Notes under the pieces: generated by a model | Told to the model about the DNA's origin: nothing | What the model saw: only the letters and a program-made list of their open reading frames with translations | Databases searched by the model: none | Shown here: positions 2 to 8,044 of the stretch, piece by piece | Position numbering within the stretch: the first letter of the stretch is position 1 | How the letters are laid out: each line of letters begins with the position of its first letter | Position numbers and translations under genes: made by a program | From: Edaphobacter lichenicola | Lineage (GTDB): Bacteria > Acidobacteriota > Terriglobia > Terriglobales > Acidobacteriaceae | Length of the DNA stretch: 64,000 nt | NCBI RefSeq assembly: GCF_025264645.1 | Contig: NZ_CP073696.1 | Location: 2,604,001-2,668,000 of the forward strand | Direction: 5' to 3'

Positions 2-592
2 TACAAACCGCTGATGGTCGCGCCGTTGACGCTGGCCGACGGGCTGGTTGAGCTGATCGAGCGGGAAGCGGCTCATGCGAAGGCGGGACGTCCCGCATCC
101 ATCATTGCCAAGATGAATGGCCTTTTAGACCGGAGAACGGTCGAAGCGTTGTATGGAGCCTCGAAGGCAGGTGTTGAGATCGACCTGATCGTCCGCGGTA
201 TGTGTTCGCTCCGGCCAGGCGTGAAGGGATTGAGCGAGCGGATACGAGTGCGTAGCGTCGTCGGGCGATTCCTTGAACATAGTCGGATCTTCTGTTTTGC
301 CAATGGCAGCAAGGAGGAGATCTACTGCGGAAGCGCGGACTGGATGCCCCGTAATCTCATTGAACGATGCGAGGTGGTATTTCCTGTAACGCAGCCCGAC
401 TTGCACAAGCGGCTGCGCGAAGAGATTCTCATGGCCTATCTGACGGACAACACCAAGGCACGACTACTACAGCCTGATGGAGAATATGTGCGTGCGCCAA
501 AGACTGGGGTTGCGTTCAGTGCTCAAAATTACCTGATGCAAGTGGCAGAAGGCAGTGTTGAGAAGGTCTCTGAATCTCCGAAGCAAAAATAA
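2..592 (+). CDS. ppk1: Polyphosphate kinase 1, C-terminal part (gene enters from the left)
   Basis: The frame is open from the left edge, so only about the last 196 residues are present. PPK1 transfers the terminal phosphate of ATP to inorganic polyphosphate through a phosphohistidine. Visible family motifs of the C2 catalytic domain are ALYGASKAGVEIDLIVRG, the CSLRPG turn, GRFLEHSRIF with the conserved histidine, and GSADWMPRNL. The tail after the domain (about 35 residues) is not conserved. The gene is convergent with the S53 peptidase on the other strand, with only 33 bases between the stop codons and no obvious hairpin there. The family call is secure; the N-terminal domains cannot be seen. 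Confidence 0.95.
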   Translation, partial: YKPLMVAPLTLADGLVELIEREAAHAKAGRPASIIAKMNGLLDRRTVEALYGASKAGVEIDLIVRGMCSLRPGVKGLSERIRVRSVVGRFLEHSRIFCFANGSKEEIYCGSADWMPRNLIERCEVVFPVTQPDLHKRLREEILMAYLTDNTKARLLQPDGEYVRAPKTGVAFSAQNYLMQVAEGSVEKVSESPKQK

Positions 593-625: not shown

Positions 626-3600
626 CTACTGAACGGTGAAGTTGATGATTACAGCCTGGATGGTTGAACCGCCAGTTGCACTTACAGTGACGGCGTAGTT
701 CCCCGGACGAAGAAGGCTTGAGTTCGGGTCGACTCCACCTCGGCCGCAACCACTGAGAACTCCCAAAGAAGAGAACAGGAGAAGGATCGTCAGCGCGCTC
801 CATCGACGATTGCGGCTAGGGAGGAAGAACAGGAACATCCCTGCCAACATGAATCCGACGCCTCGAGAGATGCCTGAGACAGCATTGTGTTTGGCGGCGA
901 TCTGACCAGCGGAGGGAGAGGATGAGATTGTCAGAACGGTGGTTACCGGCTCTGAACCAATGGATGCGATCGTGGCAGGGGTAAAGGTGCAAACAGCTCC
1001 CGAAGGCAACCCACCAGTGCAGGCAAAGGTGATGGGCGAATCAAAGCCGCCAGTGGGATTCACGGTTAGAGTAACAGCCCCAGAGTTTTTGCCTTGCGAT
1101 GTACTGGTAGATGTGGTGGATGGCGACAGGGTGAAGCTCCCTGCCGTGTCGAAGACGTTAAGAGTGGCCGCAATCGACGTAGTTGACCTATGCGCATCGT
1201 CGCCCGAGTAAGTGACCTGTACGACGTGAACCCCGGACTGGAGCGTGTTGGTCAGCAGCGGAAGAGTGATGGTAACGCCGGTTACCGTCAGTGGCTGGCC
1301 ATAAAGATTGCCATCGAGTATCAACTGTGCCGTGCCACCCGGCGTGGGAGAAGCAGGCGCGATCGTCGCAACGACGGTGATGCTGGTTCCTTCGACAGCA
1401 CTTGCATCGGAGAGTGCGACCGACACGGTGCTGGGTGAATTCGCAGTGCTGATACTGAAAGGAACAGCAGCGGAGACCGAAGCCTGGTAGTTTGCATCCC
1501 CGGAGTAAATTGCAGTGATGATATGCGTACCAAGTCCGATCGCGAGAGATTTGCTCGATGCGCTGACGGTACCGCCCGAGAGCGGGAGTTGACTGCTTAT
1601 CGCTTGACCATCGCTGATAAAGGTGACTGTGCCCGTGGGTTGGGCGCTCCCGGACGAAACGGTTGCCGCGAAGGTGAAAGGATCTCCCGGCGCTACGGAA
1701 GGGCTCGATAGAGTGAGAGAAGTGGTGCTGGTGGCAAGTGTTGAGCCAGCAACGTAAACGCCCGCCGCCGAAGAGACGGAGGGTTGATAGTTGGCGTCGC
1801 CGGAATAACTGGCAGTGATTGAGTTGTTTCCGATTGATAGTTGATTCGCAGGAAAAGTGAAGTGAGCGACACCCGTGTCGGTTGAAGCAGCGGGAAAGAC
1901 ATTTTGCGTGATAACTGAAGTCCCAAGCGTCGTACTTCCGGAGGTAAAAGTCATTACACCACTTGGCGCGGCAGCGCCGAAACCATCCAGGCCGCTGGCC
2001 GCAAAGCCTTGCGCATTGATTTGAGCGGTGAGCGTGACGGTCGCTCCGGCAGAGACGTATCCAGAGGCAGTCTGAACAACGCTGTCCGTCTGGGCTTTGA
2101 CGATCGTGATAGAGAACGAAGGCGATTGGCTCGCATTGAAACTGGCGTCGCCAGAGTAGTTTGCAGAGATGACGTGCTTTCCGGGCGCAAGCGAACGGGT
2201 CTGATCTTCGGTATTCGAAGTCGAGTTAAGGCGAAAGACACCGCCATCAAGCGGGCTACCCGAGTCAGTGAGAGTGACGTTGCCGGTAGCCATTCCCTGC
2301 CCTGAACTACCGGCCACAGCGACTCCAAAGACAACGACACCGCCATACGGATACGTCAAGCCCGACGCCAATGGCGTACTAGCTCCTGAGACTGGGTTGA
2401 AGAGCAGAGGCGTAAGCGTTGTGATGCTGGCCTCTGGAGTTACCGTCACAGTGACGGGATTTGAATCGCTGGATGCATAAGTGCCGTCTCCGGCATAGTG
2501 AGCCTGAACCGAATAAGAGCCTCCAGGAAAATTATTGAGCGACGCAGTATAGCTGCCGTCGTGCAGCGTGCCGGTTTGTATGGAACCATTGGCCGCTAAC
2601 GCATTGATGGAGACGTCCCCGGTCGGCGCACCGGTGGTAGAGATCACGTTGACCGTAGCCGCCACGGTGCTCCCATGCGAGATCGTGGAGGGAGAGAGCG
2701 AAAGCTTCGTCGCACTAGCCGTGAAGCTGGCGTTCGACCAGTCTTCGACGAGGTTCGCAGCGTTGACACTCCCCAATCCTGTCGCCATATCGTAGCCAGG
2801 GGTGCTGTTGAAACCTGAGAGTGTGCCGTAGAGATCGTTTGGATGAGTCGTGGTGCAATTCGGAGTGCCCTTGAGACAGGGCATCGCGGTCGTATCCGTC
2901 GTGATGTCGTTAAAGACGCACCCAGCGGCTGGAGCTCCGGTGATAGCGCTACAAGCCGTGCCTGCCTTGGCCTGCTCGCTGGCCAGACGATAGAGAACAT
3001 AGTTCGCATTGCCCTGACGGCTTCCCGTCTTCTCATTGACCAGGGACAAGATGCCAGCAAATGCAGGGGACGCGACTGAGGTCCCGCCGTAGCCTGCAAA
3101 ATCGTACGTCGGACCACCGAGACTACAGGGCTGGCCGTCGGGATTCGTACTCTGTTGGCAGACCACATAGAAGGCCCCGAAGAAACCTGAGCTGGCAAAC
3201 AAAGAAACGTCGGGAGTATCGCGAACGCCGTCAGACGGAACGCCAACGCCAGTCTGCCATGATGGCTTGGCGTACCCGCCTCTGCAACTTGCGGGAGATG
3301 TGCCATTGGACTGAATGCAGGAGCTAGGCCCGCCGCCGCCACCAACTACGCTGAGGAGACCATCGACGACAGCAGTCGCACTGTTACAAACCTGTTCGGG
3401 CGTCTCGCCGGAAAAGATGCGGGATGTGCCGAATACACTGTTGGTGCAGCTCTCATTCCAGGAAGATTCGGGGATATAACCTTTGGCCGAAGCTTGCGTG
3501 GCAGAGCTATTCGTGGCGCTCCAGAAGGCATCACCTCCCTGTGGCATATAGAAGTCAGTGCCGCCGACAGAGATGTTATAGGGCGTGCTTCCAAGACCGC

Positions 3601-4912
3601 TAACGGCGATACCGGCGCTCGCTCCTATGACACCGGCATTATCGCAACCCGCCGATCCGGAGTCTCCACTTGCCAGCACTACAGTGATGCCCTGTGCAGC
3701 AGCCTGCTGCCAGAGTGTCTTGTAAAAACTGTTTCCCGAAGTACCCAGAAATAGCTCGCATTCGCCGTAGCTATAACTCACCACAGGCGCAAGATTGTTA
3801 TTGACGATATAGATAGCCGATAGGTCCGTCCCCTGTGTCACCTCGGTCCCTTCAGAGACGACATAGTCGATAGTCGCTCTCTTTGCAACCGCAGCAGACC
3901 ACTGTGTATCGATGTCGGCCTCACCCTCGTCTCCCGTCACCCCCGGGTTCGGGCCGTTGTAGATAAGGTTGAGGTACTCAGTCCCCGTCGGAGTCGCAGT
4001 GTTTCCGAGAGGTAGGCTGAATAGCTTGCGGAAGTTAACAAAATCGGCCGGATTGATATCAGTCTGACCAACGATGGCGATCGTCTGACCGGCGCCGTCG
4101 ATCGGCGTGCTGGCGTTCCAGAGCGGAAGAACGTTATAGATCGTGGCGAAGTCGTATGGAGTGACCCCATAAGCCGCGACACTGCCATTATCGATCGTGA
4201 AGCCCGGAAGAGCCTTCCCCGATAGTTGCTCCGACAGAGGAGTCGTGCGATTGGTCGCCACATCGTGACGAAAGTTACCTACCCTGTGACTCGATGCTTT
4301 GCGTGGAAAGTTGTTGAGGGATGCAATGCCTGCAACGACCGGAGCAAGCGCATCGGGAATCTGTGGGTCGGAGTCGTTTGCGAAATGCTCCTCCCCTTGA
4401 ATCGCGTAGCGATGCATGCCGACACGAAAGGCACTACGCACCATCCCTGCGGTCCCGTTGAATTCAATGAGAGTGTGTCCGGCATTGACCTGCAGATTCG
4501 AGAAGCCATGACCAGAGAGCCACGCCGTGACTGCAGAGAGGTCACGATCCGATGGGCCGAACGCGGCACCGAAGCTATCGGGCGTGAGCCACTGGTGATA
4601 CATCGACGAACTCTTATCCTGCTGCTGATCGATAAGCTGTTGCAGCGCGGTCTCCTGCTCGGCACTGCGTTGGAGAACCAGAACCATGCGGCGAAGTGGT
4701 GTGGTATCTGCGAGAGCGCCTTGGTCGAACTCAGCACGCGCCAGAGGGTGGGTATTGCCGTGAAGGATCGTGCGGTGACTGTCGTCAACGGCTTGGAGAA
4801 TCCGCGACCGTGGAGCGGGTAGCGGAGACTGTGCATATGCCGGAGCAAGGACAGCAAGCAACAAAACGACAGGGGGCAAGGGGAACAACAAAACTCGTGA
4901 GAGACCAGGCAT
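626..4912 (-). CDS. Secreted S53 (kumamolisin-like) serine-carboxyl peptidase with Ig-like repeats and C-terminal membrane hairpin
   Basis: A 1428-residue exported protease. A signal peptide ending near AYA-QS is followed by a pro-kumamolisin activation domain (about residues 45-200) and the S53 catalytic domain (about 240-700). The Glu/Asp pair lies in GDEGEADIDTQW near residue 330, the oxyanion Asp in SGDSGSAGCD near 420, and the nucleophile Ser in GGTSVASPAF near 611. About five Ig-like (Big3/Ig_3 style) repeats with the recurring YSGDANYQ motif follow. The end carries two hydrophobic stretches around LPSRNRRW, a GCGRGG motif and a final beta strand ending FTVQ. S53 enzymes work at acidic pH outside the cell and release themselves by cutting the prodomain. 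The next gene upstream is a paralogue. The substrate is unknown. Confidence 0.93.
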   Translation of the reverse strand: MPGLSRVLLFPLPPVVLLLAVLAPAYAQSPLPAPRSRILQAVDDSHRTILHGNTHPLARAEFDQGALADTTPLRRMVLVLQRSAEQETALQQLIDQQQDKSSSMYHQWLTPDSFGAAFGPSDRDLSAVTAWLSGHGFSNLQVNAGHTLIEFNGTAGMVRSAFRVGMHRYAIQGEEHFANDSDPQIPDALAPVVAGIASLNNFPRKASSHRVGNFRHDVATNRTTPLSEQLSGKALPGFTIDNGSVAAYGVTPYDFATIYNVLPLWNASTPIDGAGQTIAIVGQTDINPADFVNFRKLFSLPLGNTATPTGTEYLNLIYNGPNPGVTGDEGEADIDTQWSAAVAKRATIDYVVSEGTEVTQGTDLSAIYIVNNNLAPVVSYSYGECELFLGTSGNSFYKTLWQQAAAQGITVVLASGDSGSAGCDNAGVIGASAGIAVSGLGSTPYNISVGGTDFYMPQGGDAFWSATNSSATQASAKGYIPESSWNESCTNSVFGTSRIFSGETPEQVCNSATAVVDGLLSVVGGGGGPSSCIQSNGTSPASCRGGYAKPSWQTGVGVPSDGVRDTPDVSLFASSGFFGAFYVVCQQSTNPDGQPCSLGGPTYDFAGYGGTSVASPAFAGILSLVNEKTGSRQGNANYVLYRLASEQAKAGTACSAITGAPAAGCVFNDITTDTTAMPCLKGTPNCTTTHPNDLYGTLSGFNSTPGYDMATGLGSVNAANLVEDWSNASFTASATKLSLSPSTISHGSTVAATVNVISTTGAPTGDVSINALAANGSIQTGTLHDGSYTASLNNFPGGSYSVQAHYAGDGTYASSDSNPVTVTVTPEASITTLTPLLFNPVSGASTPLASGLTYPYGGVVVFGVAVAGSSGQGMATGNVTLTDSGSPLDGGVFRLNSTSNTEDQTRSLAPGKHVISANYSGDASFNASQSPSFSITIVKAQTDSVVQTASGYVSAGATVTLTAQINAQGFAASGLDGFGAAAPSGVMTFTSGSTTLGTSVITQNVFPAASTDTGVAHFTFPANQLSIGNNSITASYSGDANYQPSVSSAAGVYVAGSTLATSTTSLTLSSPSVAPGDPFTFAATVSSGSAQPTGTVTFISDGQAISSQLPLSGGTVSASSKSLAIGLGTHIITAIYSGDANYQASVSAAVPFSISTANSPSTVSVALSDASAVEGTSITVVATIAPASPTPGGTAQLILDGNLYGQPLTVTGVTITLPLLTNTLQSGVHVVQVTYSGDDAHRSTTSIAATLNVFDTAGSFTLSPSTTSTSTSQGKNSGAVTLTVNPTGGFDSPITFACTGGLPSGAVCTFTPATIASIGSEPVTTVLTISSSPSAGQIAAKHNAVSGISRGVGFMLAGMFLFFLPSRNRRWSALTILLLFSSLGVLSGCGRGGVDPNSSLLRPGNYAVTVSATGGSTIQAVIINFTVQ

Positions 4913-5065
4913 TCGTTATTTCCAAATGCTGAGAAGATCGTGAACTCCTCAGCAAAACAAGTGAAGCAATAAAGTAGGCCAGATTCTTTCCTGATCCCGA
5001 AGCCGCGTCAAGAAAGATTTGTAACCCAAGATGGCATGTTTGGGGGATCGTTTCGTTAAAGGAAA

Positions 5066-5089
5066 AGCCGCGCCATCACAGGCGCGGCT
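5066..5089 (-). terminator. Rho-independent terminator of the second S53 peptidase gene
   Basis: A perfect 9-bp stem (AGCCGCGCC / GGCGCGGCT) with a 6-base loop lies 18 bases beyond the stop codon at 5108. On the minus strand it is followed by TTTTCCTTT, a U-rich tail. This separates the two tandem peptidase genes transcriptionally. Confidence 0.75.
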
Positions 5090-5107
5090 AAAGTAACCAC
5101 TGCTTGA

Positions 5108-8044
5108 TTACTGAACGGTGTACGCCGCCTGTATGCTGTGAACCAACCCTGTGCTGGTCGTTGCGGTAATCGTAAAGGTATAGGTTCCCGGAGCTGCATC
5201 GTTGACTGGAGTCGTACCGCCGCCGCTCCCGCCTCCACCGGTATTCGAAGTGCTTGAACCTCCGCAGCCGAATGTGGTCAAAGCCGCAGCGGAGAGCACC
5301 ACTGCGAGAAGTGCCGTCCATCGACGGCGACGTGGAAGTGTTAGAAGAAGCAACCCGGCGAGCGTAGCGCCGGAGCCGGCGGCATACCAAGGCAATCGGC
5401 CCGATGGAGTCATTCGGGGCTTGCTAAGTTTCGCAGTTGCCGGCTGAGAGGCCTGCACAACAAAGGATGTGTTGACTCCAGAAGAAGTCGTAATACTCAC
5501 GGGCGAGACTGTGAAGCTTGTCGTTGCTAGCATCCCGTCCTGGTTCGTGGCAGTCAGGTTGACCGTCCCCTGAAACCCGTTGAACGGTGTGATAACGAAC
5601 GTGATTCCAGAAGCCGTAGCGCCGGGTAGAACAGTCGCCGTTGCACCACATGGAGTAGTGGACGAGCTGTTGGTGATGGAAAAATCTGGCTTCGTTCCTG
5701 AGACGATGTCGACCGATGCGAATGCGCCGTTAGGGTAGAGCGGGAAGCTGCCTTGACCCTGAACAACGACGACTCCGCTGAGATTAGCCGGTGCGAGAAG
5801 AGTTCCCTTTGATCCCGCGTAGTTGCCATCGCCAGAATAAACCGCGCTGATAGTGTGACCACCCGAAGAGAGCGACGACAGGGACAGGGGATAGGTCGCA
5901 GTGCCGCTGGACAACTGCATCGAACCACCGACAATAGCTACGTTATCAACGAAGAACTGAACCGTCCCTGTGGGTGTTGTCCCTGAGATAGAACCCGACA
6001 CCGTAACGCTGAGCGTGAGACTGCTCGAGGCAGAGACCGCGCAGATTTGGCTGCTGGTCGTAAGTGCTGTGGTCGTGATGCCTGCCCCGATCGTGCTGCC
6101 TGAACCGGTTGGAGTTACCGAGCTCCAGCCGTTGATGAGCTGGTTGACATCGATACTGCCAATACCTGAAGCCTGGTCGTATCCAGTACCTGCGTTGTAA
6201 CCAATCGAGCCACCATTCGGGCAGTTCAATGTTCCCTGCGTGCATGGAACAGAGTTGCTGCCAGAATTAATGTCGTGGAAGACGCTGGAATATGTCGGTC
6301 CGTTCAGGAAGCCGTACAGCGTTGGCCCGATGTTGCCAAGGCCAGTGGTGTTGCCGAGCTTCTGCTCGACGAGGGCAAGAATACCCGCAAAAGTGGGCGC
6401 CACGAACGAGGTACCACCAAAGACGTTCGGCACTCCGCTTGAGGAAAGGAAGCCGTTCGTGCATGTGGGCTCCGCAGTGGTGGTGCTGTCACCCGAGCTG
6501 CAAACCAGATAGCCGTCATGCTCAGCCGCCGCGTTCAGTGAAAAGTCTGGCAGATCTCGAGCCGAGTCGTTGGGGACTCCTGTGCCTACCTGCCATGCAG
6601 GTTTGGCAAAGAATGCGCTGGCGCCACCACCACCTGCACCCCCGCCATTGCCGGCACTGTCACCAAGGCCAGCAGTTGGAGTCGTTTCATTCCACGGCTG
6701 CTCAGGAATATAAGATAGAGCGGATCCTCCACTGGAGCCATTATTGTTGTTCCAATAGTTGGCTGGTGTATTCAGGTCGCCGCTGAACATTGTTCCGCCG
6801 GCGGCTGTCGCATAGGGTGAACTGGCAGGAAAGTCTACGTTGAGCCCCTCGGTAGCAAGACCGGTTACATCGCAGTCAGTAGAACCAGAGTCACCCGAAG
6901 AACTCATGATGGTCTGACCCTGTGCATTCGCCTGCTCCAGAATCAAATTGTTGCTGGCGAGCATTGCGGTGCCCCATCCACTCTCGCAATTGCCGTAGCT
7001 GATCGTGATGATTGGAGCTACTTTGTTGGTTACAGCAGAGTCCAGAGAAGTAAAGACATCGTCGCTGAAGACGTAGATGATCTTAGCTCCCGGAGCGGCG
7101 GCGCCTGACCACTCAATATCGATGTGGGCCTCATCGATATCGGCGGTTGAGAGCCCAGGATCAGGCCCCACAAGTTGGAGTTGGAGATTGATAGCCGGAA
7201 GGCCAGCCGCCGCGCGGAACTGGGTGATGTTGGGGTCCGGATTCGCCGAAAGATCGGTCTGCCCCATGACTGCAATCGTAACTCCCGTCCCGCCTGCCGG
7301 TGTTGAAGAAGTCGGTAAGGGATTGAAGTCATAGATTGTGTACAAATCGGCTGGCGAGATGTAATGACTGGTGGTTCCGTTGGCAGTCTGCGTGTAGAGC
7401 GGCTGCGACGGGTCGATCGCTGAGGCGTGACGCGCACGGGAGCGCGGTTTGAGCTTGAAGTCATTCAACCCGTTCACGACACCCACAACGCTCGCAATGG
7501 CCGACGGCACGACCGGATCCGTAATGTTCGAGATGTGCTGCTCACCGTTATAAGACAAGCTATGAATGGTAGTGCCAAACGCAGTCTGCGCCTGCGCCAC
7601 TGTACCGGTGAAGCTGATAGAGGTGGAGCTGCGAGCAACACTCGTGATGGTGAACCCCTGGCTGGTAAGCCACGACGAAACCTTAGCGAGGTCGGCGCTA
7701 CTCAGTCCAAACCGCGCCCCAAACTGCTCTGGAGTCAGCCACTGGTGATAACTTGGCGAACTGGGGTTCAGCTGTGCAGCCAGAAGCTGCGTCAGATCTG
7801 CCTGCTGGGCCGCAGTCATACTGAAATGCAACGACAACGAATTTAATTTCGTATTGGCTGGCGCCAGGCCCAGATCCGTTGAGTTCTTAGCGCGCGCCAT
7901 GATCATCCCAGGCATGGCAACGCGACTTCCACTGTTGATCGTGCCGGCGATCCGGTCGCGGACGGCGGCATGGGCGATAGTGCTCATCGATGCAGCAAAG
8001 AGGACGACGGGAAGAGTCAGTGAAGCGAGAAAACGGCTGCGCAT
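5108..8044 (-). CDS. Secreted S53 (kumamolisin-like) peptidase, paralogue of the preceding one
   Basis: A 978-residue exported protease with a signal peptide ending IAHA-AV, a prodomain (about 60-200) and an S53 domain. The Glu/Asp pair sits in EAHIDIEW near residue 309, the oxyanion Asp in SSGDSGSTDCD near 386 and Ser in GGTSFVAPTF near 545. After the catalytic domain come one clear Ig-like repeat with YSGDGNYAG, a second Ig-like segment, and the same tail as its neighbour: hydrophobic stretch, LPRRRRW, second hydrophobic stretch, GCGGSS, glycine-rich linker, and a last strand ending YTVQ. It is shorter than its neighbour mainly because it has fewer Ig repeats. The tandem arrangement suggests duplication followed by change in repeat number. 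Confidence 0.93.
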   Translation of the reverse strand: MRSRFLASLTLPVVLFAASMSTIAHAAVRDRIAGTINSGSRVAMPGMIMARAKNSTDLGLAPANTKLNSLSLHFSMTAAQQADLTQLLAAQLNPSSPSYHQWLTPEQFGARFGLSSADLAKVSSWLTSQGFTITSVARSSTSISFTGTVAQAQTAFGTTIHSLSYNGEQHISNITDPVVPSAIASVVGVVNGLNDFKLKPRSRARHASAIDPSQPLYTQTANGTTSHYISPADLYTIYDFNPLPTSSTPAGGTGVTIAVMGQTDLSANPDPNITQFRAAAGLPAINLQLQLVGPDPGLSTADIDEAHIDIEWSGAAAPGAKIIYVFSDDVFTSLDSAVTNKVAPIITISYGNCESGWGTAMLASNNLILEQANAQGQTIMSSSGDSGSTDCDVTGLATEGLNVDFPASSPYATAAGGTMFSGDLNTPANYWNNNNGSSGGSALSYIPEQPWNETTPTAGLGDSAGNGGGAGGGGASAFFAKPAWQVGTGVPNDSARDLPDFSLNAAAEHDGYLVCSSGDSTTTAEPTCTNGFLSSSGVPNVFGGTSFVAPTFAGILALVEQKLGNTTGLGNIGPTLYGFLNGPTYSSVFHDINSGSNSVPCTQGTLNCPNGGSIGYNAGTGYDQASGIGSIDVNQLINGWSSVTPTGSGSTIGAGITTTALTTSSQICAVSASSSLTLSVTVSGSISGTTPTGTVQFFVDNVAIVGGSMQLSSGTATYPLSLSSLSSGGHTISAVYSGDGNYAGSKGTLLAPANLSGVVVVQGQGSFPLYPNGAFASVDIVSGTKPDFSITNSSSTTPCGATATVLPGATASGITFVITPFNGFQGTVNLTATNQDGMLATTSFTVSPVSITTSSGVNTSFVVQASQPATAKLSKPRMTPSGRLPWYAAGSGATLAGLLLLTLPRRRRWTALLAVVLSAAALTTFGCGGSSTSNTGGGGSGGGTTPVNDAAPGTYTFTITATTSTGLVHSIQAAYTVQ

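Follow-up and report, generated by a model that had tools for sequence, protein, structure and literature searches.

Two S53 peptidases encoded in the analysed window (64,000 nucleotides of the Edaphobacter lichenicola contig NZ_CP073696.1, positions 2,604,001 to 2,668,000) have a membrane hairpin inserted between strands E and F of their last immunoglobulin (Ig)-like domain, and the two strands that follow, the F-G hairpin, form the C-terminus of each protein. The hairpin ends in a cysteine that is invariant among the tails of this type, and residue statistics favour an internal lipoprotein (type II) signal over a simple membrane helix as the reading of its second arm. Lgt and LspA would then process an internal site, and the lipid-bearing F-G hairpin would complete the Ig fold and hold the protein at the membrane; we consider this route reasonably probable. 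The module as such is already catalogued, as the NCBIfam model NF058595 ('lipo-invert putative C-terminal anchoring domain'; release 20.0, June 2026). Its name alone suggests that the curators saw the likeness to lipoproteins, and no publication on NF058595 or a lipo-invert module was found in the open-licence literature. New here are the anatomy of the split Ig domain with its insertion point, the statistics on the Cys with controls, two cases of domain insertion and an open reading frame (ORF) with two lipoboxes.

Architecture of the two peptidases and their tails

Both proteins are encoded on the minus strand, as are all features described below for them, and were delineated from ORF, domain and NF058595 matches. 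The first (626..4912; 1428 aa) is a kumamolisin-type S53 peptidase with Ig-like repeats and a split-Ig/lipobox tail; the second (5108..8044; 978 aa) is a peptidase of the same type with one Big_3_5 stretch and such a tail. A Pro-kumamolisin domain is present in both, and the Big_3_5 stretches of the first protein number five. The order of tail elements is the same in the two proteins: Ig strands, arm, basic turn, arm, Cys, linker, F-G and an end in TVQ. The lipobox is thus not N-terminal but lies near the C-terminal end, beyond the peptidase and the Ig repeats.

In the first protein, strands A-E of the Ig-like domain (920..1138; tail residues 25-97) are supported by AlphaFold strands with a block pLDDT of 87-96 and by an alignment to 2ber. 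They are followed by the first hydrophobic arm GVGFMLAGMFLFFL (821..862), recognized from its hydrophobic window and sequence, the basic turn PSRNRRW (800..820) and the second hydrophobic arm SALTILLLFSSLGVLSG (749..799), which appears to be the h-region of the putative internal lipoprotein signal, as indicated by its sequence, the tail alignment and the comparison with controls. The invariant lipobox Cys (L-S-G-C) is encoded at 746..748, and strands F and G, GNYAVTVSATGGSTIQAVIINFTVQ, assigned from uninterrupted homologues and AlphaFold, occupy the C-terminal end (629..703). The second protein contains, in the same order, the Ig-like strands ahead of the insert (5447..5686; tail residues 3-82; AlphaFold and an alignment to 1wcq), the first arm YAAGSGATLAGLLLLTL (5336..5386; hydrophobic window and sequence), the basic turn PRRRRW (5318..5335), the second arm and putative h-region TALLAVVLSAAALTTFG (5267..5317; sequence and tail alignment), the lipobox Cys in the context T-F-G-C (5264..5266; tail alignment) and, at the C-terminal end, strands F and G, GTYTFTITATTSTGLVHSIQAAYTVQ (5111..5188; uninterrupted homologues and AlphaFold).

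The preliminary description of this region had listed both ORFs, the arms, the turns (LPSRNRRW and LPRRRRW), the GCGR and GCGG motifs and the FTVQ and YTVQ ends, all of which are present at 629-862 and 5111-5386. It had also stated that the two tails match each other. Two-sequence BLASTP does not detect this likeness (E 0.66), but a global alignment places it well beyond chance (z = 10.3, 300 shuffles), and both tails match NF058595, a 113-position model ('invert_tail') of the same region that comprises the end of the first half of the domain, both arms, the Cys and F-G. In a protein scan, the first tail reaches E 2.6e-9 and 37.4 bits and the second E 4.8e-9 and 36.5 bits, that is, 0.5 bit under the cut-off of 37; in a genome search, both are above the cut-off, with 44.1 and 39.8 bits, respectively.

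The view that the module is neither an LPXTG nor a PEP-CTERM signal holds as well: no curated model of an LPXTG, PEP-CTERM or GlyGly-CTERM tag in NCBIfam matched the tails, and the chain runs on beyond the basic cluster. A PEP-CTERM or T9SS tail was also rejected on an NCBIfam search at E up to 1, in which the sole matches were invert_tail and a T9SS match of the first protein, at 9.5 bits against a cut-off of 23. The idea that the hairpin arose from a frameshift or faulty assembly was dropped, since 156 distinct tails share the layout.

Insertion point and predicted fold of the split Ig domain

The insertion point follows from uninterrupted homologues of the Ig domain, which run straight through the junction of strands E and F. 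Such homologues occur in the tail proteins themselves as well as in others. Searching with a profile in which the two Ig halves were joined gave 43 rows in 24 loci, with 28 rows above 30 bits; the 15 rows below that score are doubtful and include two that are not genuine, a misread tail (L114) and a combination of an inserted domain with F-G (L154, 964-1047). An example is the uninterrupted domain TLTISTTAGTPAGTYTVTV of Micromonospora (L195), in which '...STLTISTTA|GTPAGTYTVTV...' is continuous, whereas a typical tail has TLTITTTA, then the hairpin and the Cys, and only then GTPAGTYTVTV. The proposal that a hairpin interrupts the last Ig domain is therefore correct, but its placement just before the final strand is not, since two strands follow the hairpin.

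AlphaFold models of the two window tails, built on alignments of 51 and 52 tails, place the strands ahead of the hairpin and F-G in a single sandwich. The block pLDDT for F-G is 93-97 in the first tail and 84-94 in the second. Both arms are rendered as helices, with low confidence in the first tail (50-68 for the hairpin region) and middling confidence in the second (59-84 for the arms). Structural re-alignment, which is a re-examination of Foldseek rows and not a separate search, matched the model range 25-194 of the first tail to residues 405-502 of 2ber (Z 12.4, 97 residues, rmsd 1.9) and the range 3-194 of the second tail to residues 405-502 of 1wcq (Z 11.3, 97 residues, rmsd 1.8), the ranges giving the first and last aligned residue only. 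Both alignments span the two halves of the domain; in the first tail, the strands ahead of the hairpin hold just 73 of the residues. Foldseek itself gave no PDB match to the tail models at E 0.001 or better. Being built on homologous tails, the models are consistent with the alignment but not independent of it. Taken as such, they describe the tail as an Ig-like beta-sandwich in which strands A-G come together and which matches continuous Ig domains. The strands beyond the hairpin are thus predicted to complete the fold, as had been suspected, and both models count F-G among the strands of the sandwich, contrary to the alternative of an Ig domain that needs no last strand.

The second arm resembles a lipoprotein signal

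The Cys occupies a single model column, at the end of the second arm, in all 156 distinct full-length tails. It is preceded by Gly, Ala or Ser in 155 of them (G 91, A 46, S 18; N in the remaining one) and followed by Gly or Ser in 138. This set comprises 164 proteins with a profile match, less four that are not full length, namely L053 (frameshifted), L183 (long loop) and L193 and L195 (uninterrupted Ig domains with no hairpin), and less four duplicates among the resulting 160. L154 and L190, where the part of the profile beyond the Cys falls on an inserted stretch, are inside the count; L182 (contig end) and L194 (module and Cys seen by eye), both without a profile match, are outside it. The conservation of the Cys itself is favoured by the sampling because the search profiles contain the Cys and high-scoring matches were taken.

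As a control, internal Cys residues after comparable hydrophobic stretches were collected from 1172 putative genes in the same DNA; G, A or S precedes the Cys in 16 of 38 such cases (Fisher p 8e-18 against the tails, with kinship ignored). The hydrophobicity filter used for this control is passed by 144 of the 156 tails, and an earlier, smaller control of the same kind gave 6 of 22. Kinship does not explain the difference because, when one tail is taken per cluster at 50% identity, 102 of 103 keep G, A or S, and positions -2 to -8 from the Cys are highly variable, with entropies of 2.9-3.3 bits. The basic turn has a net charge of at least +2 in 156/156 tails and exceeds both flanks in 150, and the distance from the last charged residue to the Cys has a median of 17 residues (16-19 in the middle half). 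A lipobox ordinarily ends an N-terminal signal, and we know of no proven case of an internal one; nevertheless, the basic turn, the short hydrophobic stretch, the [GAS]C pair and the Gly/Ser-rich start of the linker together favour the reading of the second arm as an internal lipoprotein signal. Asp directly follows the Cys in none of the 156 tails; by the +2 rule of Escherichia coli, such a lipoprotein would not be kept in the inner membrane.

The match to the classical lipobox is partial. A PROSITE-like regular expression fits 106 of the 156 tails; Pro at -2 or Gln at -3 is seen in many of those it does not fit, and residues -3 and -2 are often non-classical (e.g., LPAC or LQAGC). Among N-terminal lipoprotein candidates, a group mixed with non-lipoproteins, G, A or S precedes the Cys in 16/27 (8/11 in a smaller set). 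The Pfam lipoprotein models gave weak matches to LPAM_1 (E 2.9) and LptM_cons (E 0.073), none at cut-off, for five internal second-arm fragments, no family for five first-arm fragments and, for five N-terminal controls, one match to LPAM_1 (E 0.038, under the cut-off) and none at cut-off for any of them, so these models discriminate little. The best independent sign comes from NF058595, since this model was curated by others: at E up to 10 it gives 39 matches in the own genome, 17 of which are weak, partial and outside tails, and the eight of these 17 that were read all resemble N-terminal lipoprotein signals by eye.

These data also bear on a simpler reading, in which the hairpin is a plain membrane anchor with two transmembrane arms, the chain stays uncut, the Cys is structural or otherwise modified, and F-G returns across the hairpin. 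Two hydrophobic windows in 155 of the 156 tails and the modelled helices for both arms agree with such an anchor, which, however, leaves unexplained the invariance of the Cys, the retention of G, A or S before it while the neighbouring residues drift, and the match of a curated tail profile to N-terminal lipoprotein signals. This reading appears unlikely. The preliminary description had treated the second arm as a membrane segment and the Cys as a possible second, internal anchor; the part concerning the Cys is retained here as likely, whereas for the second arm a lipoprotein signal is preferred to a plain membrane segment.

Predicted processing of the tail and related systems

The internal lipoprotein signal would operate as follows. 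An N-terminal signal peptide, predicted from sequence, would export the chain; a hydrophobic N-terminal window is present in 16 of the 18 further tail ORFs of the own genome, the exceptions being the frameshifted L053 and L056. The first arm would stop transfer, leaving the basic turn, as its charge suggests, in the cytoplasm. The second arm, now N-in, could then serve as a type II signal peptide; such a signal has to begin in the cytoplasm, and for an internal one this would require the first arm. Lgt would lipidate the Cys and LspA would cut before it, giving a large N-terminal chain with Ig strands A-E and the membrane hairpin and a lipopeptide of approximately 40 residues with strands F and G. 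F-G would remain in, or go back to, the Ig sandwich, so that non-covalent completion of the Ig fold by separate strands would follow from the cleavage, and the protein would be held to its lipid anchor through the C-terminal end, the reverse of an ordinary lipoprotein. An uncut first arm would by itself keep the large chain in the inner membrane, in which case the lipid may be redundant; sorting to the outer membrane would require later trimming of the hairpin. The own genome encodes one LspA, two Lgt and one LolA, with the Lgt and LspA matches above cut-off. The two Lgt matches (G000:C1:1789331-1790134 and 3567877-3568578) score 124.2 and 69.5 bits, respectively, and the lower-scoring one might serve particular substrates.

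With bacterial lipoproteins processed by Lgt and LspA, the tail shares the basic stretch, the short hydrophobic stretch, the [GAS]-Cys pair and a Gly/Ser-rich tether. Unlike in these proteins, the signal lies inside the chain, where hundreds of residues and a stop-transfer arm precede it, and the putative lipidated piece is usually the last ~40 residues rather than the main protein. Completion of an Ig-like fold by strands that may come from another chain is known from donor-strand complementation in pili (the FimC/Caf1M type and the lipoprotein fimbriae of Porphyromonas). Unlike in pili, the F-G hairpin of the tail and the domain that it completes share one ORF and would become separate chains through cleavage, and the proposed route involves no chaperone, usher or polymer.

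The closest published tag found is MYXO-CTERM of Myxococcota, likewise a C-terminal tag with an invariant Cys, a membrane arm and an Arg cluster that occurs in many proteins per genome. For MYXO-CTERM, lipidation by Lgt has been proposed; its Cys stands ahead of the only arm, the Arg cluster closes the chain, a defined lipobox is absent, and the topology is inverted (PMC11980579). The tails differ from this description in their order (arm, Arg cluster, arm, Cys and two Ig strands) and would have the normal lipoprotein orientation. The resemblance raises the question of a sorting protease (exosortase-, rhombosortase- or myxosortase-like) that would use the first arm and the basic cluster as its tag, the rest of the module being discarded or secondary. 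The first arm with its Arg cluster does resemble the TM-plus-Arg part of CTERM tags, and myxosortase acts beside an invariant Cys (PMC11980579). Nevertheless, no strongly conserved motif is found before the first arm, the sole exception being a Pro at model position 70 in 112/156 tails; the best profile columns are those of the Ig strands, the Cys and F-G, and the module continues past the Arg cluster with F-G well kept. Judged from the tail profile, such a protease is quite improbable.

If internal lipidation by Lgt and LspA is true, the lipoprotein pathway would act on internal sites, and one step would both anchor the C-terminal end and cut inside a fold. Acidobacteriota would have a general means of displaying proteases, glycoside hydrolases and beta-propeller proteins that needs Lgt and LspA alone, and lipoprotein predictors limited to N-termini would overlook the entire class. 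A naturally split Ig domain would join the strand-complementation systems and might be of use as a two-part protein tag.

Variant tails

Two tails carry a long stretch between the Cys and F-G. In one (L154), this stretch is 116 residues long and includes, at 916-1013, a HYDIN/ASH-like Ig domain; in the other (L190), 135 residues separate the Cys (residue 1203) from F-G (from 1339). F-G is still the C-terminus in both, as expected if F-G must return to strands A-E, and these cases demonstrate that a whole domain can follow the Cys, as in an ordinary lipoprotein. The inserted stretch of L190 includes a domain-like part, INIGGNWTFVTTSSNFVG, that sits inside the split Ig domain and gave no Pfam match.

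The same two tails are relevant to the possibility that the module is a release switch, in which the cut by LspA would remove F-G, the Ig domain would open, and the large chain would be freed or degraded, with the lipopeptide as a by-product or signal. The cut would indeed break the chain within the fold, and that F-G stays bound afterwards is something we infer. However, F-G is conserved in the manner of Ig strands, is modelled inside the sandwich and remains C-terminal despite the 116 or 135 residues after the Cys, whereas waste would be expected to drift. A release switch thus seems very improbable.

An ORF of 3059 aa in the own genome (L247:1514-10690) contains GH2 domains and a full tail with the Cys at residue 1882, followed by a second hairpin, identical to the first at 26 of 44 aligned positions, and a second lipobox Cys at residue 1972. 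The 1088 residues from the second Cys on include fn3, malectin and GH64 matches; among the matches listed for 40 other genomes of the genus, there are five partial ones and none over the full length. This ORF resembles a polyprotein or, as the lack of full-length matches among those listed would also allow, the product of a recent fusion. A more far-reaching version of the internal lipidation route, possible but rather doubtful, is that the split Ig domain works as a clutch: after the lipoprotein-pathway cut and trimming of the first arm as well, the two chains would be joined solely by F-G, enzymes would hang from the outer membrane, and the same rule would give rise to polyprotein ORFs.

Two further variants concern the reading frame and the turn. 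In one tail of the own genome (L053, G000:C1:4504300-4507000, about 50-357, minus strand), the frame changes just before the Cys, and NF058595 matches the two halves in adjacent stretches in different frames; this may be a pseudogene, a sequencing error or a programmed shift. In L183 (ORF at 2-1858, from about residue 513), the turn between the arms is enlarged by RHSRGGGNQWVPAFAGTTGKR, which resembles a translated dispersed repeat.

Distribution and partners of the module

In the own genome, 15 places are above the NF058595 cut-off, and reading of ORFs gives 19 intact tails, including the two in the window, and one frameshifted tail; four of the 19 intact ones score under the cut-off in the genome search. 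The tails are attached to S53 peptidases (three proteins, including those in the window), FG-GAP propellers, NHL, GH2 and GH44 domains, a right-handed beta-helix, HYDIN/ASH-like Ig domains and MBG repeats. The tail is thus a transferable C-terminal module that occurs with unrelated N-terminal domains.

The phylum was sampled with 396 genomes; NF058595 has matches at E 1e-5 in 69 of them and matches above the cut-off in 49; at most 11 candidates were scored per genome, so that per-genome counts are minima, and single weak matches outside the window's family may be partial. All 44 genomes of this family among those listed match, and the listed non-matching genomes start outside the family; 307 non-matching genomes entered the count with no names listed. 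The suggestion that the module would recur in other secreted proteins is thus substantiated by its partners and by its spread across the family and the phylum. A tail from a genome of the same family (L065) and one of Terriglobus albidus are identical over 165 residues. In 14 control genomes, NF058595 has matches at E up to 10 in all 14, at 1e-5 in one (Thermus composti) and above the cut-off in none.

A peptide pattern run over 84,980 species genomes yielded 300 stretches and 69 confirmed loci. By record title, 65 of these belong to Acidobacteriota taken broadly, with Aminicenantes counted in, two come from actinomycetes, and one each from an Ideonella metagenome-assembled genome (MAG) and a MAG labelled Gammaproteobacteria. 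The two actinomycete loci are uninterrupted Ig domains, so that the full-length tails outside Acidobacteriota are those of the Ideonella MAG (L156) and the Gammaproteobacteria-labelled MAG (L155), both on FG-GAP proteins. The Ideonella MAG is alone above the NF058595 cut-off among 150 genomes of its family, a pattern that points to gene transfer or misbinning; the copy in L155 may have either origin as well. The expectation of an acidobacterial module therefore stands for nearly all loci, but not in the strict sense, given the copies in these two MAGs. Finally, eight further loci (L061, L127, L149, L153, L160, L161, L162 and L180) contain two tail ORFs each, as does the window; pairs of tail genes are thus no rarity.
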